From assembly GCA_947629385.1 (NCBI GenBank), contig CANRDO010000009.1, positions 1 through 64,000 on the forward strand: 64,000 nt of DNA, written 5' to 3'. The DNA is from an uncultured Lachnospiraceae bacterium. GTDB lineage: Bacteria; Bacillota; Clostridia; Lachnospirales; Lachnospiraceae. Shown here piece after piece: positions 1 to 57,576 of this stretch. Both the position numbers and the translations under genes were made by a program. Numbering within the stretch: position 1 is the first letter of the stretch; each line of letters starts with the position of its first letter. The notes under the pieces were generated by a model. It was not told where the DNA came from. It did no database searches and saw nothing but the letters and a program-made list of their open reading frames with translations.

Positions 1-107
1 TTCGCGAGCATAGCGACAGCTGTCGGAGCATGTCTGAGCGAAGCGAGTTTGCGGAGACAGCTGTCCATAGGCGGCGCAGCGAATCAAGGAGAACAACGTG
101 TTTGCGG
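1..107. repeat. Dispersed 107-bp repeat unit, copy 1
   Basis: These bases recur in inverted orientation at 44108-44214 with a single mismatch (position 54). The unit contains two perfect 10-bp palindromes GACAGCTGTC at 15-24 and 56-65. It lies just downstream of the spoIIR stop codon. The unit may begin before the window, so its left end is not defined. No protein of recognisable family is encoded. The following bases to about 150 share a CCCGGGTTTTGT-type end with the element near 44.5 kb. Confidence 0.85.
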
Positions 108-170
108 TGGACAGGCACATCGGCTCCTGCGGCGCCCGGGTTTTGTGCACTAAACACGAATTCCCTGTAT

Positions 171-809
171 TCAGAACCACCGAAATGCGATCTTCCACTT
201 CTTTGGCCTGCGCAGTAGGCTTTCATACTCATCTACCGTCAATACCTCTTTGAGATCCGCAAGCTCGTCCTCGTCCACGACCGCGTGCAGGCAGTCGGAG
301 AAGCACAGCCCCGGATAGAGCACGCACCACCAGTTATGGCCTTTTGCCTCGCCGAGACGGATGCGCAGCGCGTCGTACCATCCCGCAGGAAAGGTGCAGT
401 CCCCGTAGGCGCGCTCCGGGAAATAGCAGTTCTCGATGGAGGCCTGCGCCTGATAGCTCATCCCCTGCTCTTCCAACACCCGGTTTGCGCTCTCCTCAAT
501 CTCGGAAAGATGCTCAGAGAGGAAGCAGAGTTCAGACTCTTTCGCGTTATCTGTATCCTTTCGCTCTGCTTGTCCGTTCCCATTGTTCCGTTCTATGTCA
601 ATCCACTCCAGCACTGCGTCGCGCACCAAAAGCTTGACCTCCTGATCCTCCTCGCTGTCGCTATTCGCCAGCACATGGAAGCGCAGCACCTCCTCCGCGA
701 TTCCACGCTGCAGGATCGCTCGATGCGCCGCGGATACTCCGAGATCCAACACAAGCGCGCAGGCAAGCACGCAAATGATCGTTTTTATCCAGTCATTTTT
801 TCGCAACAT
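171..809 (-). CDS. spoIIR: Stage II sporulation protein R (SpoIIR)
   Basis: SpoIIR is the forespore-made, exported signal that triggers SpoIIGA to process pro-sigma-E in the mother cell. The 212-residue product starts with a positively charged stretch and one hydrophobic segment (about residues 8-28), consistent with export. The family core follows, with the HVLANSDSEEDQEVK block and a conserved Cys-containing C-terminal half. An in-frame TTG lies three codons upstream (818), but ATG at 809 is preferred because a GGGAGGG ribosome-binding site lies 9 bases ahead of it. That site sits in the right arm of a hairpin (812-846). mrp lies upstream on the same strand, and a dispersed repeat follows the stop codon. 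Confidence 0.93.
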   Translation of the reverse strand: MLRKNDWIKTIICVLACALVLDLGVSAAHRAILQRGIAEEVLRFHVLANSDSEEDQEVKLLVRDAVLEWIDIERNNGNGQAERKDTDNAKESELCFLSEHLSEIEESANRVLEEQGMSYQAQASIENCYFPERAYGDCTFPAGWYDALRIRLGEAKGHNWWCVLYPGLCFSDCLHAVVDEDELADLKEVLTVDEYESLLRRPKKWKIAFRWF

Positions 810-811
810 AA

Positions 812-846
812 AAGGCAACCCTCCCTTGTATCAGGAGTGTTGCCTT
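812..846 (-). promoter_or_regulatory. Hairpin covering the spoIIR ribosome-binding site
   Basis: On the minus strand the arms AAGGCAAC and GTTGCCTT pair perfectly. The stem continues past one A/G mismatch with CTCC pairing to GGAG. The spoIIR Shine-Dalgarno sequence GGGAGGG is therefore inside the stem, 9 bases before the ATG. Only about four T residues follow on the minus strand, so it is a weak terminator for mrp. It may instead limit translation of spoIIR. The plus strand has ATTTTT after the stem, but no plus-strand gene precedes it. Confidence 0.55.
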
Positions 847-5170: not shown

Positions 5171-6961
5171 TCAGAAATTCGCGCTGTCGTCCTCGAGCAA
5201 CTTTCGCAGATACCGGCTGACGACACGCGAAAAGCTCTCAATGCTACGGATATAGGCAAAGTCCTTGCCGAAGATCTTTTTCTCCGCCATCAGCTCTTTT
5301 TCTCTCCCGGTGAACACGCCGAGCACGCAGACGCCCTTTCCGCGCAGCTTTCGCACCTCGAAGGCGGTGTCGGTCACCGCATAGTCCCCGTAGTACGGCC
5401 GCGGGTTGCGGCTGTTCGGCCGGTTTACGATGATATCGTTCGGCTTGCCGTCGCTCAATACGATGAGGATCTTGCCTTCCTCCTGGCGCTGCAGCAGTCC
5501 GTCGCCCACGGCGCGGATCGCCAGTCCGTCCCGGTTGTTCGAGGAGGTCACATACTCCAGCACGCGCCGATTCTCCTCGCGCGGCGCGTCGTATTCCCGA
5601 AATCTCTGCAGGATCGTATAATCCCAGAAGCTGCAGAAGCTCATGATGCGGTGCGGCACATGATTGTTTGACAGCGCCTCGCTGATGATGTAAGCCTGCA
5701 GCGCCACCTGCCCCTGCCGGTCGCGCTGGGAGCCGCTCGCGTCGATCAGTATATCGACCGCGAACTCCGACACGTTGCGTTTCATCGTCTTTACGAAGAG
5801 GCGGCCCGGATCCTCCATCCTGCCCACCTTCCAGAGAAGCCGCGGAACGATCTGCCCCGACCAGGCCGCGCTCTCCTCCGGCTCGCTGCGACGGTGCAGG
5901 GAGCGCTTCAGCTCGTCTGTGAGCTGTTCGATGTTGCGTGCGAGCATATTTTTGCTGTTGCGAAACAGCGTCCGGTTTTTCTCCGCATGCCGCCTCGCGT
6001 TGACGAACTGCGCGTTCGCGAGTACAGGATTCCTGAGAACGCCGTCCGTAAAATAAAGGCTGCAGTCTGCATGCGCTCCGCGGCACAGCCGCTGGTTCAG
6101 CCGTTTCTGCTCCAGCTCCGAGAGGTACGATCTTCCGTAATTCAGCTCGATGTACGAGTGCATCTTCGCCGCGGCCTCCGGCGAGATCAGCGTCACCTTG
6201 CGCTTACCCGGATTCCTCGGCGCGTCCTCCTTCTCGTCCTGCTCCTCCTGCAGCGTCGTCACCTGGCTGTTCATCTTGTTCATGTAGCGCTCAAGCAGAT
6301 CCTCGCCCATCTCCTCTTCCAGAAAATCGCTCCAGTCAAACTCCTGCAGATCATCCGCCGTCACGGCGAGCACATGCGCCAGATCCCCGTGCTTGCGCAC
6401 GAAGCTCTTGTCGATCAACGTATTGTACAGCTCGTCCGTCGCACGGATCAGCTCCATCGTATCGCGCGCGTCCTCCAGAGCGCGGATCAGCCGCAGCGCC
6501 TCTTCAATCTGCCGCTCACAGTGCCAGTCGCCTCGCAGATACCCGCGCAGCAAAGCGATCTTGATCCTGCCCGGCAGTGACGCGCTCATCCTCTGAAACG
6601 ACAGATCCAGCAGGTCCGAGAACGCCTTCTGCCGCAGCTCCGGCACGCCGGGCCGCTCCGCCGCGATCTTCCGGTACACCGCCGCGTCCACGCAGAGCTG
6701 CGCGAGCTCCGTCAGCGGCTGCTCCTGCGCCCCATAGTACACCTTCTTCACGAGGTAAAGTCCGAGCTCGTCCCGGTCGAAAAAGCGCGCGAAAGCGCCC
6801 TGCTTCACCGCGTCGTACATGGAAATATACTTCGAGCGATGCCAGGACTCCATGTCAAGCTTCGTGTCCAGCCGGTAATCCCCGCTGACCGTCCACATCA
6901 GGTTGCGTATTCGGTTTTCCGCCTCCGTCATGAGGTCGTCGGATGCATACAGCTCGTCCAT
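5171..6961 (-). CDS. VWA-domain protein, partner of MoxR ATPase
   Basis: The 596-residue protein has a helical N-terminal region with a highly charged stretch (EEEMGEDLLERYMNKMN, EQDEKEDAPRN). A von Willebrand factor A domain occupies its last 200 residues, with the metal-ion-dependent adhesion motif as DASGS and a later Thr/Asp region. This layout matches VWA proteins of the CobT/NorD type that work with MoxR-family AAA+ ATPases to remodel or activate client proteins. The moxR-like gene lies immediately upstream on the same strand, separated only by a dispersed repeat, which supports the pairing. No metalloenzyme client lies beside it, so the target is unknown. Confidence 0.85.
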   Translation of the reverse strand: MDELYASDDLMTEAENRIRNLMWTVSGDYRLDTKLDMESWHRSKYISMYDAVKQGAFARFFDRDELGLYLVKKVYYGAQEQPLTELAQLCVDAAVYRKIAAERPGVPELRQKAFSDLLDLSFQRMSASLPGRIKIALLRGYLRGDWHCERQIEEALRLIRALEDARDTMELIRATDELYNTLIDKSFVRKHGDLAHVLAVTADDLQEFDWSDFLEEEMGEDLLERYMNKMNSQVTTLQEEQDEKEDAPRNPGKRKVTLISPEAAAKMHSYIELNYGRSYLSELEQKRLNQRLCRGAHADCSLYFTDGVLRNPVLANAQFVNARRHAEKNRTLFRNSKNMLARNIEQLTDELKRSLHRRSEPEESAAWSGQIVPRLLWKVGRMEDPGRLFVKTMKRNVSEFAVDILIDASGSQRDRQGQVALQAYIISEALSNNHVPHRIMSFCSFWDYTILQRFREYDAPREENRRVLEYVTSSNNRDGLAIRAVGDGLLQRQEEGKILIVLSDGKPNDIIVNRPNSRNPRPYYGDYAVTDTAFEVRKLRGKGVCVLGVFTGREKELMAEKKIFGKDFAYIRSIESFSRVVSRYLRKLLEDDSANF

Positions 6962-6997
6962 TTTCTTCTCCGTTTGCTCAATTCACGTATTGGCTAA

Positions 6998-7155
6998 CCG
7001 GACGCCCTGCAAGGGCTTGCAATGTCAGGGCAGACCCGCTCGCGCTTAATCGGGCACGCAGCGGTGCATAAGTTCGCTTGCGCTCACCAAGCACCGGCGG
7101 CCCTCAATGATCTGCCCTGACACAGCAAGTCCTTGCCGGGCTGTGCACTATGCAC
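6998..7155. mobile_element. MITE-like repeat element, short copy (A)
   Basis: The element is bounded by imperfect inverted repeats of about 30 bp: one end reads GCCCTGCAAGGGCTTGCAAT and continues into GTCAGGGCAGA, and the other carries TCTGCCCTGACACAGCAAG. The interior holds GGTGC...GCACC pairing around TAAGTTCGCTTGCGCTCACC. The same element, inverted and enlarged by roughly 80 bp in the middle, is at 44292-44536. No transposase is encoded. It overlaps the 3' end of the moxR-like gene and fills the gap to the VWA gene. Confidence 0.8.
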
Positions 7156-8078
7156 GATGCCCCGAAAATTTCCGCCGACGTCCAGCTCTCCGGGATGCGC
7201 GTCATCACGATGTCCTCCACGATCTCGCGCTCGAACAGGTCGAAGCTCTTGTTGACGATCCCCATGCGGATTGCAAGCCGGGGGCTGAGCCCCGCGCGCA
7301 CGGTCTTGAGCGCGCCGATCAGTCCACGCAGATCGAGCGGCTTCGTAGAGATCTCGTTGTTGTTTGCCTTCGTCTGCAGGTCGAGGAACAGCCCGCAGAT
7401 CTGCTCCAGCCCTTCCTTCCGGAAATCCGGGAAGACTCGTTCCAAAATATAGTGCAGCGTATCCTCCGTCGCCATCGGCATCTCAATCACCAGAAAACGC
7501 GACACCAGCGCCTCGTTGAGCTCGCGCGTGCCCGCGTATCCATAGTTCATCGTGCCGATGAAGCGGGCCGCATCGTGCAGGCTCACCTTCTCATAACCAG
7601 GAATATCAAGGATCCGGCGATAATCGAGCGTCGCGTGGAGCACGGAGACCGCGTCGTTCTTCGCCATGTTCACCTCGTCGAAGATGCCGAAGCCCCCGCC
7701 GACCGCGCAGTCGTAGACCGGGCCGGTGCGCAGCTGCACCTCGCCCGCGCGGAACGTGTCCGTGCCGATCAGCGCGCTGCTGTCCATATTGACATGAAAT
7801 GAGATGTTCCACGACGGCCTTCCAAACACGTAGGCAAGGTTCTCCGCAAGAATGTTTTTCCCGGTCGCCTTCGTGCCGGTCAGGAGGATATTCTCCCCCT
7901 GCAGAAGCGCAGCCGCCGCCATCTCGAACGTCTCCCGTCCGTAGTACGGCAGCATCGGCCGGATGATCCTCGGTTTCAGCTTCTCCTCCACCGGATATCT
8001 CTCCCGAAACTCCGCGATCGCGCGCAGAAGCTCCCTGCTCACCTGCTGCTCTTCCAGTGACTGAATGATATAATCCAT
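7104..8078 (-). CDS. MoxR-family AAA+ ATPase
   Basis: MoxR-type AAA+ ATPases act as chaperones together with VWA proteins. The 324-residue product carries Walker B as GIFDEVNMA, sensor-1 region IGTMNYGYAGT and an arginine-finger-like NEALVSRF block. Its Walker A is unusual, GTKATGKN (residues 68-75), with Asn where Thr or Ser is normal. ATG at 8078 is the likely start; the reading frame is open further upstream, but the extra sequence is Arg/Ser-rich and unlike the family. The last 17 or so codons (from about 7155) come from a dispersed repeat, so the natural C terminus may have been replaced. The VWA gene follows downstream. Confidence 0.85.
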   Translation of the reverse strand: MDYIIQSLEEQQVSRELLRAIAEFRERYPVEEKLKPRIIRPMLPYYGRETFEMAAAALLQGENILLTGTKATGKNILAENLAYVFGRPSWNISFHVNMDSSALIGTDTFRAGEVQLRTGPVYDCAVGGGFGIFDEVNMAKNDAVSVLHATLDYRRILDIPGYEKVSLHDAARFIGTMNYGYAGTRELNEALVSRFLVIEMPMATEDTLHYILERVFPDFRKEGLEQICGLFLDLQTKANNNEISTKPLDLRGLIGALKTVRAGLSPRLAIRMGIVNKSFDLFEREIVEDIVMTRIPESWTSAEIFGASCIVHSPARTCCVRADH

Positions 8079-8205
8079 GCGATTGCCTCTCCTGTCTTTC
8101 TCTATGTCTGTCCGTTTTTCTGAACCTATATAAATCTGTCCGCTCTTTTGACCTGCTGCCCGGCTTGTCCCGCAACGAGACTGTCGAAAGCCGTTCCCGC
8201 AAACT

Positions 8206-8433
8206 TCAGATCTCCGTAAACGAATATCGCTCCTTGATCCCGGAGGCGGTGATGTCGTAGACGATCGTCCCGTCCGGCTGTACGGTCTTGTCGAATGTGA
8301 CTTCCTTGCCCTTAAATTTCTCCTGCAGAAATGCGTCGATGTCCTCAATCTCAAGCTCCTCAATGAATACGTCGCGCATCTGGTTGTTCGCACATTTATT
8401 GAAAATCTCCCATACGGTCTCGTAACACTTCAT
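8206..8433 (-). CDS. Small acidic protein of unknown function, upstream of moxR
   Basis: This 75-residue protein (start MKCYETVWEIFNKCANN) is not assigned to a family. It is acidic in the middle (FIEELEIEDIDAF) and ends in a beta-rich segment (GTIVYDITASGIKERYSF). GAGGAG lies 11 bases before the ATG at 8433. An upstream in-frame ATG (8484) has poorer support. It precedes the MoxR/VWA genes on the same strand with a 127-bp gap, so it may be a third member of that group, but this is inference from position only. Confidence 0.6.
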   Translation of the reverse strand: MKCYETVWEIFNKCANNQMRDVFIEELEIEDIDAFLQEKFKGKEVTFDKTVQPDGTIVYDITASGIKERYSFTEI

Positions 8434-41022: not shown

Positions 41023-41790
41023 CACTTTCTTCGCTGTGCATACCGCCTTTTTTCCTTTTCCGGTACATAAAACGACAAAAAATATAAATTGCACACCACT
41101 TTTTCTCAGAACGCGTCCGAGCTCGTCCATCGTGCTCCCGGTTGTGTACACATCATCCACCAGAAGCACACAGCGAAACGGTGCAAAACCTCCGCGCACC
41201 GCAAAACATCCTCGCAGATTTTTCATCCGCTCCTGTCTGCTGAGCGTCTTCTGAGGACGAACCATGCGCGTGCAGTACAAAAGGGCATTCTCCACAGGGA
41301 TGCCGGTCAGCCTGCCGATCTCCTCTGCAAGAAGCTCTGATTGGTTATAGCCGCGACTGCGCCGCTTCCGTGGATACATCGGAACCGGAAGGATCGCCTC
41401 CGGCCTCCAACGCGGAAGATACTGCACGAGCACTCTGCTCATCGACTCTGCAAAAAATGGCACATACTCCCGTCGATTGGATGATTTCATGCGATATACA
41501 GAATGCCGCAGCGCTCCCGTATAGGTAAACGCCGCGACACCTCGGTCATAATAATGAGCTTGCTTCTGACAGTCCTCACAGTATTCCTGTCCTTCGTCTC
41601 CGACTGGCTTGCCGCATTTCATGCATGCATTCTCTCCGACCCACGGCAAAGCTTTCGCGCAGGATGGACAACAGCGCTTCCATCTTATGTCCAAAACCTC
41701 GTCGCAGATCGGACAGCGCGGCGGATACAGAAGATTCAACAGCGCTTCCTTTCTTCTGGTATTCCTGATATTTCCTATCTTCCTGTTCAA
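41020..41790 (-). CDS. ComF-family phosphoribosyltransferase-like protein
   Basis: ComF proteins take part in DNA uptake and possibly primosome function. The 256-residue protein has a zinc finger at the N terminus (CPICDE...CCPSC...CMKCGK...CEDCQK) and a phosphoribosyltransferase-type PRPP loop at the C terminus (VLLVDDVYTTGSTMDE). Its start overlaps the recD2 stop by 4 bp, so the two DNA-processing genes are translationally coupled. Confidence 0.92.
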   Translation of the reverse strand: MNRKIGNIRNTRRKEALLNLLYPPRCPICDEVLDIRWKRCCPSCAKALPWVGENACMKCGKPVGDEGQEYCEDCQKQAHYYDRGVAAFTYTGALRHSVYRMKSSNRREYVPFFAESMSRVLVQYLPRWRPEAILPVPMYPRKRRSRGYNQSELLAEEIGRLTGIPVENALLYCTRMVRPQKTLSRQERMKNLRGCFAVRGGFAPFRCVLLVDDVYTTGSTMDELGRVLRKSGVQFIFFVVLCTGKGKKAVCTAKKV

Positions 41791-44018
41791 TCGGTCTTCC
41801 CTGTTTTCTCCCCCTGCGCCAACTCACAAATTCGTTCCGTCAGAGAAGTATAGCGCTTCTGCTCCATCGTGTTGTCGATCATCTGTGCAAACGTCTCCGG
41901 GTCTCCGACAATCGTCACACATTTCCGCGCACGTGTCACGGCCGTGTACAAAAGGTTGCGATTCATCAGCATGCGTGGACCGTTCAGCAGAGGTATCACA
42001 ACGGCCGGATATTCGCTTCCCTGCGACTTGTGAATCGTCACCGCATATGCAAGCTCCAGCTCCTCCAGCCCAGAATATGGATACTCCACCATGCGATGCT
42101 CATCGAACTCGACGGTCACCCGCTCCGTGTGCAGGTTGATTTCCCGGATGATCCCCATATCTCCATTGAAGATTCCTTCCCCCTTCTCGACCGGAATTCC
42201 GTAACGGCCGCGTATCTCCCATTCGATCTGATAATTGTTTTTGATCTGCATGACCTTGTCACCCTCGCGGAAGATCTGACCACCATATTCATGCTCGCAC
42301 TTCTCGCGATTCGGCGGATTCAAATACTCCTGCAGAATGCGATTCAGTCGTTCTACGCCAAGCAACCCTTTGCGCATCGGCGTCAGCACCTGGATATCAA
42401 ACGGCTCCGCGTCCACATAGCGCGGCAGCTTTTCCCTGATCAACTGAATTACAATGCTGATGATCACATTCGCGTCATACCGCTTCAGGAAGAAAAAGTC
42501 CCGGCTCTTGTTATTCAGCGCTACCTGCTCCCCCCGGTTGATGCGGTGTGCATTCACAACAATATCACTCTCTGACGCCTGCCGGAAAATCTTTGTCAGA
42601 CATACCACCGGCACCTTTTCCGAATCAATAATATCCTTCAACACACTTCCGGGCCCCACAGAAGGAAGCTGGTTTCGGTCTCCGACCATGATCAGGCGCG
42701 TCCCGACCGTAACTGCATCCAGCAGCGCATGCATCAGGTGGATGTCTACCATTGACATCTCATCGATGATCACAACATCTGCCTCCAGCGGATCCTGTGC
42801 ATTTTTCGAAAAGCTGACCGCATTCCCATCCTGCGCGCCCGAGATCTCCAGCATCCGATGAATCGTCCTCGCCTCATATCCGGTCGCTTCCGTCATCCGC
42901 TTCGCGGCACGACCGGTCGGGGCAGCCAGAAGGATCTGCAGACCCTCCGACTCAAAGTAAGAGATCAGAGTGTTGATCGTTGTCGTCTTTCCGGTGCCCG
43001 GCCCTCCTGTGATCACGAGCAAGCCGCAGCGCACGGATTCGATCACTGCCTTTTTCTGCATCTCATCCAGATACGTGCCTGTCTCCTTCTCGATCTCGGC
43101 TATTTTCCTCTGGATCGTCGCTTCGTCAATCTCTCCGGTAATGTTGAGATCGCAAAGCATACGTGCCGTGTCCAGCTCCGTGAAGTACGCAGACGCGCTG
43201 TACACTCGCTCCTGCTCCTCCCGTTTAATCACGATCTTTCGCTCGATCGACAAATCGATCAGATATTGATCAATGTTCTCAAGCGGTACACCAAGCAGCT
43301 CTCCCGCCCTCTGCATGAGCTGATCCTTCGGCAGAAAAATATGACCTTCTCCGCCGGCTTTTTTCAGAATATAAAAAACCGCACATTTCACGCGATATTC
43401 AGAATCTGCTCGGACTCCTGCCCGTATTGCAATCTCGTCCGCGATGCGAAAGCCTACGCCGTCAATATCCTCTGCAAGACGGTACGGATTCTCCTGCATT
43501 ACCCGGTAAAGCTCCTGCCCATACTGCTGGTAGATCTTAGCTGCCAGCGTCGTCGTAATTCCGTACTGCTGCAGAAAGATCATCGCCTTACGCATGTCGC
43601 GCTTCTCGTATACCTGCTGCGCAATCTCGCGCGCTTTTTTCTCACTGATCCCTTTGATCTCCGCAAGACGCTCCGGCTCCTCCTCGATGATCCGTAGAGT
43701 GTCCTCCCGGAAATGTCTCACAATTCTGGCCGCAAGCGCAGCTCCGACGCCCTTGATCGCTCCGGAGCCCAGATAGCGCTCGACAGCCTCCTCATCCTCC
43801 GGCGTCTTGACCGTGCAGGTCTCAATTTTAAACTGCTCCCCATACGACGGGTGTGATATGTACTGTCCGCTCAGCTCAACCTTCTCTCCCTCACCGACGT
43901 AGGAGAGCGTCCCAACGCATGTAACTTCCTCATCGTCGACGGTCAGAACCATGACCGTATAGCCATTGTCGGCGTTGCGGAAAATAATATGGTCAATGTA
44001 ACCTTCTAATTTTTCCAT
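41787..44018 (-). CDS. recD2: RecD2-type ATP-dependent DNA helicase
   Basis: RecD2 is a 5'-3' superfamily 1B helicase acting in repair without RecBC. The 743-residue protein has an N-terminal OB-like part, helix-hairpin-helix segments (GSGAIKGVGAALAARIV, IKGISEKKAREIA), then the helicase core with Walker A GGPGTGKTT, motif II VIIDEMSMVD, GDRNQLPSVGPG and the C-terminal TIHKSQGSEYPAV and LYTAVTRA. ATG 44018 has GGAGGAGC directly before it. The frame is open upstream to 44117, but the extra part lies partly in repeat DNA. comF follows with 4 bp of overlap. Confidence 0.94.
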   Translation of the reverse strand: MEKLEGYIDHIIFRNADNGYTVMVLTVDDEEVTCVGTLSYVGEGEKVELSGQYISHPSYGEQFKIETCTVKTPEDEEAVERYLGSGAIKGVGAALAARIVRHFREDTLRIIEEEPERLAEIKGISEKKAREIAQQVYEKRDMRKAMIFLQQYGITTTLAAKIYQQYGQELYRVMQENPYRLAEDIDGVGFRIADEIAIRAGVRADSEYRVKCAVFYILKKAGGEGHIFLPKDQLMQRAGELLGVPLENIDQYLIDLSIERKIVIKREEQERVYSASAYFTELDTARMLCDLNITGEIDEATIQRKIAEIEKETGTYLDEMQKKAVIESVRCGLLVITGGPGTGKTTTINTLISYFESEGLQILLAAPTGRAAKRMTEATGYEARTIHRMLEISGAQDGNAVSFSKNAQDPLEADVVIIDEMSMVDIHLMHALLDAVTVGTRLIMVGDRNQLPSVGPGSVLKDIIDSEKVPVVCLTKIFRQASESDIVVNAHRINRGEQVALNNKSRDFFFLKRYDANVIISIVIQLIREKLPRYVDAEPFDIQVLTPMRKGLLGVERLNRILQEYLNPPNREKCEHEYGGQIFREGDKVMQIKNNYQIEWEIRGRYGIPVEKGEGIFNGDMGIIREINLHTERVTVEFDEHRMVEYPYSGLEELELAYAVTIHKSQGSEYPAVVIPLLNGPRMLMNRNLLYTAVTRARKCVTIVGDPETFAQMIDNTMEQKRYTSLTERICELAQGEKTGKTD

Positions 44019-44107
44019 GCTCCTCCAAGTAAAATGATGGTGGTCTGACTTCGTGTATAGTTCACTTAAATGTAATCCGAACGCGTGCTCTGTCTGCGGA
44101 TGTTCCG

Positions 44108-44214
44108 CCGCAAACACGTTGTTCTCCTTGATTCGCTGCGCCGCCTATGGACAGCTGTCTACGCAAACTCGCTTCGCTCAGACATGCTCCGACAGCTGTC
44201 GCTATGCTCGCGAA
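44108..44214. repeat. Dispersed 107-bp repeat unit, copy 2 (inverted)
   Basis: The reverse complement matches 1-107 at 106 of 107 positions, including both GACAGCTGTC palindromes. It lies upstream of recD2 in the 524-bp gap between recD2 and mreB, next to the MITE-like element. The bases between the two (44215-44291) contain further short inverted repeats and no gene. Confidence 0.9.
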
Positions 44215-44291
44215 TCCTGCGTCGAACTGCCTATCGTTTGCGCACGGAACACCGACAGCTCAGCGCACGCTGTTTCGTTTCGTATTCCAAC

Positions 44292-44536
44292 GCATAGCCC
44301 AGCAAAAGGGACTTGCTGTGTCAGGGCAGACACCCCGGGCCGCCGGTGCTTAGTGAGCGCAAGCGAGCTTATGCACCGCTGCATGCCCGATTAAGCGCGA
44401 GCGGGAGTCGGAAAGCAACGCGAAGCGTTCTCAAATGCTTTCCGACGATATGCCGCTGAACGAATGTGAGGGGGCGCTTCCGCACGGCCCTGACATTGCA
44501 AGCCCTTGCAGGGCGTCCGGGTTTTGTAAACTATAG
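44292..44536. mobile_element. MITE-like repeat element, long copy (B)
   Basis: The left end (GGGACTTGCTGTGTCAGGGC at 44308) and the right end (GGCCCTGACATTGCAAGCCC at 44486) form imperfect inverted repeats. Relative to the 6998-7155 copy it is inverted and has an additional central block of about 80 bp (44406-44485). That block holds a perfect 11-bp hairpin, GTCGGAAAGCA / TGCTTTCCGAC. It ends 6 bp from the mreB stop codon and has no coding capacity. Confidence 0.8.
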
Positions 44537-44542
44537 GCGAAT

Positions 44543-45541
44543 TTACTCCACAACCTTGCCATCTGAAGCCGTCAGCTCTACGAAGCGTCCGGTTCCGACC
44601 GCCACGACTGTCATCGGATCCTCCGCCGTCATCGTATTGATGCCGGTCCGCGCCTCGATCAATTCCTCCAGCCCGGAAAGCAGAGCTCCGCCACCCGTCA
44701 AAACGATTCCCCGGTCAACTACGTCGGCCGCAAGCTCCGGCGGTGTGCGCTCCAGCACGCTGTGCACCGCGTCGACGATCTGACTTGTCACTTCCTTGAG
44801 CGCATCCCGCGTATCCTCGGAGGTGACACGAATCGTTTTCGGCAACCCGGTCACAATATCACGGCCTTTGACCTCCATCACCTTCGGCTCCGGTTTCTCA
44901 AACGCAGTGCCGATTGTGATCTTGATTTCCTCAGCCGTCTGCTCGCCGATCATCAGGCCGTATTTCTTGCGAACATATTTCACAATCGCATCGTCAAAAT
45001 CATCGCCTGCCACCTTGAGCGAAGCGCTGACTACAATGCCATCCAGTGAGATCACTGCCACGTCGCAGGTACCGCCGCCGATATCGACGATCATGTTCCC
45101 GCAAGGACGCGAGATATCGATCCCTGCTCCGATTGCCGCCGCGATCGGCTCCTCGATAATATGCACCTCTCTGGCTCCCGCCTGATAGGTTGCGTCCTCC
45201 ACAGCCTTTTTCTCCACCTCAGTGACGCTGCTCGGCACACAGATGCTGACCCGCGGTTTGCGGAACGACATCCTGCCGATTGCCTTCTGAATAAAATACT
45301 TGAGCATCTGCTCCGTCACCGTGTAGTCCGAGATCACGCCCTTGCGCATCGGCCGAACGGCGACAATATTTCCCGGAGTCCTGCCAAGCATCAGCCGCGC
45401 CTCCTCGCCGATCGCCTTGATCTTATTCGTGTCCCTGTCGTACGCGACCACCGACGGCTCCTTCAGCACAACTCCCTTGCCCCTGACATATACTAAAATA
45501 CTGGCTGTACCCAGATCGATTCCAACATCCGTACCCGGCAT
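44543..45541 (-). CDS. mreB: Rod-shape actin homologue MreB/Mbl
   Basis: This bacterial actin organises lateral wall synthesis at the membrane. The 332-residue protein shows the phosphate-1 loop DVGIDLGTASILVYV, the IIEEPIAAAIGAG region, phosphate-2 IVDIGGGTCDVAVIS and the adenosine motif GIVLTGGGALLSGL. mreC, mreD and other shape genes are not adjacent, so it may be an Mbl-type paralogue rather than the MreB of the mreBCD operon. The 3' end is flanked by repeat DNA. An inverted repeat overlaps its predicted transcription start. Confidence 0.94.
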   Translation of the reverse strand: MPGTDVGIDLGTASILVYVRGKGVVLKEPSVVAYDRDTNKIKAIGEEARLMLGRTPGNIVAVRPMRKGVISDYTVTEQMLKYFIQKAIGRMSFRKPRVSICVPSSVTEVEKKAVEDATYQAGAREVHIIEEPIAAAIGAGIDISRPCGNMIVDIGGGTCDVAVISLDGIVVSASLKVAGDDFDDAIVKYVRKKYGLMIGEQTAEEIKITIGTAFEKPEPKVMEVKGRDIVTGLPKTIRVTSEDTRDALKEVTSQIVDAVHSVLERTPPELAADVVDRGIVLTGGGALLSGLEELIEARTGINTMTAEDPMTVVAVGTGRFVELTASDGKVVE

Positions 45542-56891: not shown

Positions 56892-57179
56892 TCATCTCTG
56901 CGCCTTAGGAAGAAACTCCACCTTCAGACGCATTCCAAGCCCCTCTGCCAGCCTCTTTAGCATATTCAGGCTGGGATTTCTCGTACCATTCTCAATCCGA
57001 CTGATGTCTGCCTGTGTGATCCCCGTCCTTCTGGACAACTCCTCCTGTGTCATATTCTGCTGCTTTCTGGCGCCGATCATCGCGCGAATCACATCAAACT
57101 CCGGTTCAAGGGCATCGTATTCCCGACGCACCTCAGGATCATTCAGCAGTTCCTGTCTGAATTCTCTGAAATCACTCAT
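56892..57179 (-). CDS. higA: HigA-type antitoxin (XRE helix-turn-helix)
   Basis: The 95-residue antitoxin has a helix-turn-helix of the XRE family (QNMTQEELSRRTGITQADIS, about residues 40-60) and the conserved NPSLNMLKRLAEGLG. The helical N-terminal part (EFRQELLNDPEVRREYDALE) is typical of HigA antitoxins that bind the toxin. It overlaps the toxin gene by 8 bp. It probably represses its own operon through the palindrome in the promoter. Confidence 0.88.
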   Translation of the reverse strand: MSDFREFRQELLNDPEVRREYDALEPEFDVIRAMIGARKQQNMTQEELSRRTGITQADISRIENGTRNPSLNMLKRLAEGLGMRLKVEFLPKAQR

Positions 57180-57528
57180 CTGTCTTCCTCCTCTCATAAT
57201 CCTTTCGATACTTCTTAGCCAACAGGATTTCGCTTCTCGGCGTCTTCTGCTGTTTCTTCGTAAAACCGTTTGTCAGTATTATCTTTTTCCCTGATGAGAA
57301 AAAATACAGCACTCGAACAATATCTGATCCATGCTTTGCGCGAATCTCAAAAATGCCGTCATCCAGGTGATCCGAATACGGAAATCTTGCGCCTGGGCCG
57401 TATTCCTCCAATATATCAAAAATGCGGAGTAACTTCGCTTTCATCTTCGCATCCAGTGTCAGGATGAAATCTTTCGCAGGCTCCGCATAGTTCTCTTTCG
57501 TATAGAATTCAATAAAATACTTATCCAC
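57172..57528 (-). CDS. higB: HigB-type toxin (RelE/ParE superfamily)
   Basis: The 118-residue protein belongs to the phage-derived Gp49/HigB toxin family, ribosome-dependent RNases. Visible features are EIRAKHGSDIVRVLYFF and the C-terminal NGFTKKQQKTPRSEI, with the conserved Lys and Arg residues. GTG 57528 with AAAGGA 5 bases ahead is the start; the transcription start predicted from the promoter is only about 13 bp upstream, so earlier codons cannot be used. Toxin-first order fits HigBA. Confidence 0.87.
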   Translation of the reverse strand: MDKYFIEFYTKENYAEPAKDFILTLDAKMKAKLLRIFDILEEYGPGARFPYSDHLDDGIFEIRAKHGSDIVRVLYFFSSGKKIILTNGFTKKQQKTPRSEILLAKKYRKDYERRKTDE

Positions 57529-57547
57529 TTTTTCCTTTCTTGCCTTG

Positions 57548-57576
57548 ATTATATGTCTTATCAGACATATTGTCAA
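57548..57576 (-). promoter_or_regulatory. Perfect consensus promoter and operator of higBA
   Basis: Minus strand: TTGACA (57571-57576), exactly 17 bp, TATAAT (57548-57553). A perfect 20-bp palindrome with arms ATATGTCT / AGACATAT and a 4-base centre (57551-57570) fills the spacer and enters the -10, so repressor binding would block RNA polymerase. Confidence 0.92.

Follow-up and report, generated by a model that had tools for sequence, protein, structure and literature searches.

REP/REPIN and BIME sequences are dispersed, palindromic and intercistronic repeats whose copies are similar within a genome, and Correia and ERIC sequences are palindromic intergenic repeats in which size variants arise by internal insertion or deletion, with Correia elements making TA target duplications. 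In the available part of a report on Streptococcus pneumoniae, Correia and ERIC repeats are named alongside BOX, a modular, stem-loop forming and intergenic repeat of 67 to 637 bp, and miniature inverted-repeat transposable elements (MITEs) are characterised as AT-rich (PMC3049150). The available part of a study of Haloquadratum walsbyi describes the repeats SMR-A and SMR-B, which have terminal inverted repeats (TIRs), make no target duplication and are too short to encode a transposase, with ends unrelated to any known transposon and a mobilisation that is unexplained (PMC3119063). The same source describes PATEs, which are palindromes without target duplication that undergo core deletions leaving terminal-only forms (PMC3119063).

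Here we describe a repeat family of a gut bacterium, from a Lachnospiraceae-like draft metagenome-assembled genome (MAG) of 3.24 Mb in 104 contigs, designated G000. The features listed above for REP/REPIN and BIME are also those of this family, and those listed for Correia and ERIC, apart from the TA target duplications of Correia elements, are shared as far as likeness of description goes. As far as the accessible descriptions extend, REP/REPIN and BIME differ from it in sequence and size, and our element does not co-occur with a Y1/RAYT-type transposase. By analogy, and judged from the available parts of the sources, the nearest described class appears to be the SMRs of Haloquadratum and the nearest modular repeat appears to be BOX. 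The element has TIRs, makes no target duplication and is too short for a transposase, as is described for SMRs. However, SMRs belong to another domain of life and are homogeneous (commonly above 95%). They are likened here by description and not by sequence, and modularity or exchange of contents at fixed sites, both features of our element, are not described for SMRs in the available part of the source (PMC3119063). As with BOX, modules recombine in varying order, and the one composite of BOX with T-box riboswitches reported in the accessible text is comparable to the GA-cis module treated below. In contrast, target duplications and an excess of copies between convergent genes are described for BOX (PMC3049150), whereas our element has no target-site duplication (TSD) and lies within gene runs; its nested paired arms with co-occurring partners are a further difference from BOX as there described. 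The terminal-only forms of PATEs are comparable to the 26 to 66-bp forms of our element, but PATEs, by the same partial account, lack TIRs and are tied to IS605-type transposons (PMC3119063), while our element has clear TIRs and no Y1 co-occurrence. A literature search at the level of titles and abstracts found no paper on comparable repeats in Lachnospiraceae.

The window, a stretch of 64,000 nucleotides at the start of contig C9, contains the copies collected in Table 1. The initial annotation had recognised copies 1 and 2 as elements in opposite orientation with common ends and a conserved interior, and this is borne out; they are mutually inverted and share the end sequence GCAAGGGCTTGCAATGTCAG and a conserved inner stem. 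It had placed them at 6998-7155 and 44292-44536, which is the inner part of each, while the true ends lie outside these intervals and the third copy had been missed. When all copies were inspected with their flanks, conservation extended to a common 16-base inverted repeat, TTCGTGTWTARTKCAC, which at up to two mismatches has 60 matches in G000 versus 6 for a reversed control pattern. Further copies with defined ends, as the earlier reading predicted, are numerous. A query with the short copy gave 44 matches in G000, and we place the copy number at about 30-39, with 39 contig-level places counted by hand, some of which are two halves of one site divided by a contig end. The two size variants first noted are an undercount, as pairing of TIR matches gave bounded elements of 26, 57, 191, 203, 416, 422, 445, 459, 492 and 578 bp in G000, and the longest element, of 792 bp, occurs in the relative G004.

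Table 1. Copies of the repeat in the window, their parts and the genes beside them
Feature	Position	Strand	Remark
Copy 1	6971..7158 (approx.)	+	short 191-bp type, both TIRs degenerate; core order cL-cM-cR
Copy 1, left TIR	6971..6986	+	worn, 10/16 positions agreeing by eye
Copy 1, right TIR	7143..7158	-	ATCGTGCATAGTGCAC, 2 mismatches
Copy 1, core stem, inner left arm	7004..7034	+	
Copy 1, core stem, inner right arm	7111..7141	-	
Copy 2	44050..44541	-	492 bp; minus-strand order cL, GA-cis, cM, cR, M1, B, R, E2, q
Copy 2, left TIR	44050..44065	+	TTCGTGTATAGTTCAC
Copy 2, right TIR	44526..44541	-	TTCGCCTATAGTTTAC, worn
Copy 2, GA-cis RNA module (Rfam RF02987)	44403..44485	+	the insert first noted in this copy
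Copy 3	1..160	+	cut by start of contig C9; modules B, R, E1; right TIR 145-160 (minus strand)
AAA ATPase gene	7104..8393	-	own stop replaced by copy 1
CobT_C / VWA domain gene	5171..6961	-	next in gene run, starts just past copy 1
mreB	44543..45541	-	copy 2 starts one base beyond the stop codon
recD2-like helicase gene	41787..44117	-	downstream of copy 2; listed start falls within the element
spoIIR-like gene	171..818	-	upstream of copy 3; stop 10 bases from the element

The inner inverted arms of copy 1 are 31 nt long with a complementarity of 87%. Folding is much stronger than that of dinucleotide shuffles, with z values of -6.05 for 6998-7155, -3.38 for 44292-44536 and -4.84 for the whole of copy 2. 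The copy-1 site has orthologous forms in the relatives G069, where the left TIR is likewise worn, and G009. It is empty in G029 and G035, which shows that gain or loss has taken place here; the flanks are too diverged for an exact junction. The product of the adjoining AAA ATPase gene has gained 17 residues (SCIVHSPARTCCVRADH) from copy 1, and the true start of the recD2-like gene is, by inspection, probably near 44018. The R module of copy 2, which on the minus strand lies between B and E2, has a conserved AGGAGAACAACGTG that resembles a ribosome-binding site and GTG start codon, and the short frame of the E2 form terminates within the TIR. This resemblance may be chance. Elsewhere in the window (56892-57576) a Gp49-like (HigB-type) gene adjoins an HTH_3 gene, forming a probable toxin-antitoxin pair.

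Annotation of modules in 49 bounded elements from several genomes (one row, L022, being false) revealed a nested organization. The core is composed of a left arm (cL), a loop (cM) and a right arm (cR), and it may be accompanied by a second hairpin whose loop B occurs with R and whose arms come in matched pairs, M1 with E2 in 12 elements and M2 with E1 in 6. Mixed pairs number zero in G000 and G069. This strict pairing stands for these two genomes only, because at a looser annotation cut-off elements of G005 are labelled with both E1 and E2. Outermost are the short arms p, q and s, followed by the TIR. Compensatory changes at 9 of its 36 pairs support the core stem, and its covariation score is 0.240, whereas shuffles score 0.152 and slid structures no higher than 0.107. 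Imperfect palindromes can, however, self-correct by template switching, a process that also leads to compensatory changes without selection. The GA-cis, cM and B modules each contain what is by eye a GA-GC-(loop)-GC-GA hairpin, and the name GA-cis may reflect this motif.

The roughly 80 extra central bases of copy 2, which the initial annotation had described as an internal insertion with a perfect 11-bp hairpin, are present as stated. Far from being anonymous, this segment is a full match to the Rfam family RF02987 (60.4 bits with a gathering threshold of 34.7, model positions 1-88); in our element it is one module of a larger repeat. GA-cis has reportedly been described as an RNA motif in Coprococcus and in gut metagenomes, and we found no paper on it among the literature matches listed. 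All five GA-cis matches in G000 are located within these elements. Matches occur in 11 of 392 genomes across the order, each from the family to which G000 belongs. One of them, G425, has ten matches, and the two that were read closely (L180 and L182) sit within a different long palindromic repeat, while others, such as L172 and L173, are solitary between genes. GA-cis is thus a module that is found by itself as well as within repeats. At L174 (G421, contig C2) two genes are separated by GA-cis copies in head-to-tail tandem.

The family is distinguished by the way contents are exchanged while sites are conserved. We compared flanks at 21 sites common to G000 and its relative G069 (about 95% identical), merging the two sides by hand and using the loci retrieved. 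At 16 of the 21 sites the elements are unlike in size, in their modules or in orientation, the flanks being about 90-99% identical up to the edge of the repeat, and at five they are alike (C10:5858, C6:50740, C20:28531 at one end only, C7:81860 and a bare palindrome at C16). For example, a 57-bp element in one genome corresponds to a 475-bp element in the other (L085/L264), and one site is occupied with and without GA-cis (L019/L228). The site of copy 2 contains in G069 a 573-bp element of opposite orientation with the other arm pair; a worn end is common to both species. Comparison can be extended to four species at one site, where the element measures 191 bp in G000, 492 bp in G069, 301 bp in G009 and 413 bp in G005. 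At the L015 site, which is empty in G005 and G023, the interiors in G035 and G016 share little with that of G000 beyond the ends, and at the L009 site relatives hold another palindrome family, GCAACGAGCC...GGCTCGTTGC. Cores are 97-98% identical within G000, 97% within G009 and 90% within G005. Comparison of G000 with G009 or G005 at shared sites gives only 70-74% for the cores, against 79-92% identity for the flanks. Cores of G000 and G069 do not separate (mean differences of 4.5 and 5.3 within and 5.0 between, of 138 positions), which indicates that this pair shares one pool and counts against a simple homogenisation per species.

A bare 26-bp palindrome, TTCGTGTTTA-RTKCAC-TAAACACGAA, is present in G000 and G069 and, by coordinates, in G029 (C152:765-790), and one bare palindrome in G000 (L101) has a long element (L269) as its counterpart in G069. 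Such a palindrome could be a resident landing site, at the centre of which a dedicated activity inserts or exchanges unrelated hairpin cassettes. Unrelated interiors between the same ends, even at one site (G035, G016 and G000 at L015; also G004), would be expected if this were so, and a 6-base duplication of the self-complementary centre GTGCAC would pass for a longer TIR. We nonetheless regard this as unlikely, because bare palindromes are rare, the empty sites of G029, G035, G005 and G023 have no palindrome, and the contents of the copy-2 site differ after about 30 bases from the worn shared end and not at the centre. True bare palindromes number three among the annotated bounded elements, as the "26 bp full" rows L022, L028, L121, L126, L153, L234, L247 and L256 are false, the left end GTGCACAAAACCC having been taken for a right end. 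A tyrosine-recombinase-like core site of two 10-base arms and a 6-base centre, which the 26-bp palindrome had suggested, was set aside because element boundaries carry half sites and not whole ones. Dedicated cassette exchange at 26-bp palindromes is a bolder reading than recombination with core deletion. In its widest form, which we consider doubtful, exchange would be genome-wide, with fixed palindromic slots at stop codons within gene runs and with structured contents, including an Rfam RNA motif, being actively exchanged, inverted and emptied by a recombinase or a hairpin-breakage pathway.

The initial annotation likened the element to a MITE and proposed a search for TSDs and for an autonomous relative with the same ends. 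The likeness holds insofar as the element is non-autonomous, multi-copy, bounded by TIRs, short (26-792 bp), without a transposase gene and with insert variants, but both proposed searches came out negative, the second in the loci examined. None of 43 bounded copies (including the false row L022, which was excluded from gene-context, GC and open-frame counts) has a direct repeat of at least 3 bases at its boundary, where 0.7 are expected at 3 bases, and other boundary offsets gave values near chance for these copies. In agreement with the initial annotation, Pfam scans of the window's 54 codon-scored genes identified none as a transposase. TIR pairs spaced 0.9-4.5 kb apart in the examined loci amounted to four, none with matching transposon-like ends, and no TIR-bounded transposase gene or autonomous element was found in those loci. 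Thus, MITE in the strict sense is an unsupported name for this family. The elements also are not AT-rich, with a mean GC of 0.547 for copies longer than 100 bp against 0.55 for the window. The longest open frame in any of 48 copies is 148 codons from stop to stop, and coding capacity amounts to nothing beyond chance frames.

Could the family still be a classical MITE whose parent transposon is yet to be found, with independent insertions and misassembly of repeats in MAGs accounting for the differences between species? The TIRs, copy number, short length and chance frames are all those of such a family, and both flanks show a weak preference (A/T at -2, T at -4) that resembles target choice. 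All genomes are draft MAGs of many contigs, many of which end within copies, so some long interiors could be misassembled or chimeric. Yet 14 of the 16 differing sites can already be told apart, at one end, in the first 75 bases next to the flank, a distance that one read of usual length would cover, and independent insertion at the same exact base in several species is itself unlikely. Together with the absent TSDs and the lack of a TIR-bounded transposase gene in the examined loci, this makes a classical MITE family distinctly improbable.

Several candidates for mobilisation or origin were rejected. Contig ends of G004 that were read for a transposase contained only further palindromic interiors of up to 792 bp. 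A RAYT/Y1 transposase does not co-occur with the element; PF01797 is present in 25 of 47 genomes of the genus and in none of the carriers G004, G029, G016, G035 and G023 (which are incomplete drafts). A phage or plasmid origin was likewise dismissed, as searches of IMG/VR, plasmids and phages gave no match to the element.

With respect to genes, the distance from the element to the upstream stop codon is peaked. Among 154 TIRs, 69 face the 3' end of a gene; in 17 of these 69 the stop lies one base ahead of the element, and in another 17 it lies at TIR bases 9-11, TTCGTGTT-TAR itself giving TAA or TAG. These raw counts include orthologues of one site, and after merging (69 ends forming 42 clusters) the stop is one base ahead in 6 clusters and inside the TIR in 9. 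With orthologues unmerged, A/T is found at -2 in 60/69 and 61/65 cases on the two flanks and T at -4 in 39/69 and 36/65, a weak site preference fitting TAA-N or TGA-N. Start-side distances are rough because genes were predicted by a home-made codon score. The setting between co-directional genes, found for 26 of the 30 bounded G000 and G069 elements with both neighbours called (31 examined), is no enrichment over the window background of 45/53 gene pairs.

This placement, with a stop codon on one side and the next gene start on the other, the covarying stems and the filing of GA-cis as an RNA by Rfam would all suit functional intercistronic RNA structures, such as attenuators, processing signals or cis-regulatory elements, that are retained for tuning operon expression. 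We consider this highly improbable, given that the orientation of the core with respect to mRNA is mixed (42 to 30), which led us to reject a strand-specific RNA function of the core, that the co-directional setting is no commoner than background, that contents at one site change freely, and that palindrome self-correction can imitate covariation.

At up to one mismatch, the TIR matches in 24 of 47 genomes of the genus, mostly once or twice, and is abundant in G069 (71), G000 (49), G029 (36), G004 (36), G035 (20), G009 (15), G016 (11) and G005 (8), where controls give 0 or 1. Besides G000, seven species of the genus carry many copies. A search of 60 genomes with the core matched 7 including G000, all of this genus, and a pattern scan of a named genome collection returned 35 stretches, each belonging to an uncultured Lachnospiraceae MAG in the "Lapin" series. 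Contig ends of G004 (L205-L224) have the same TIR start (TTCGTGTTTARTT) followed by several very different long palindromic interiors, one of them the 792-bp element, in which no gene was recognised by eye. The GCAACGAGCC...GGCTCGTTGC family is a second palindromic family within the same TIR frame. Its places are the L009 site in G069 (L280), G016 (L284), G023 (L282) and G005 (L283) as well as C8:35888 (L122) and C8:48046 (L123) in G000, and some of its copies have TA at both sides, which may be a target duplication.

We favor, with a probability of roughly 0.6, an old family of non-autonomous, TIR-bounded and TSD-less elements, MITE-like and akin to SMR and BOX repeats, whose copies have been reshuffled through recombination, loss of the core and insertion of one module into another. 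In its favor are the ends that all copies have in common, the number of copies, the nesting of paired arms, the absence of TSDs and stop-codon adjacency, as are empty orthologous sites, content differences at the same site, likeness within species and the covarying core stem. An activity in trans would have dispersed the copies. The 26, 57, 62 and 66-bp forms would stem from deletion of the core, either between short repeats or across the hairpin, and conversion or templated repair from other copies may renew contents in place. Since the two outer arms resemble each other, such repair or conversion may also invert the interior. Other hairpin modules, for example GA-cis, would additionally be inserted into elements. 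The simplest mechanism is recombination between copies together with core deletion, perhaps begun by breakage of extruded hairpins, a plausible trigger. Of 9 element-bearing genomes examined, 6 have SbcD above the cut-off and G005, G016 and G009 do not, which weakens SbcCD as a general trigger and leaves it at most a candidate agent. Against this explanation are the failure to find a mobilising enzyme in the examined loci or a fresh insertion at a clean empty site, the length of a 16-base TIR plus about 20 bases of outer arm, which is short for RecA-type exchange, and the G035 and G016 interiors at L015, which conversion between copies explains poorly.

The positions of these elements are old and their contents young, a pattern that is usually missed without comparison of orthologous sites. 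It suggests that some catalogued structured RNAs, such as GA-cis, are at least partly modules of dispersed repeats and not only stand-alone regulators. The position of the repeat is linked with stop codons that lie within gene runs, and any effects on the gene downstream are measurable there. Were the cassette-exchange reading true, intergenic segments would be reshuffled faster than the surrounding genes diverge. The family offers a natural setting in which to test how long palindromes are turned over in bacteria.
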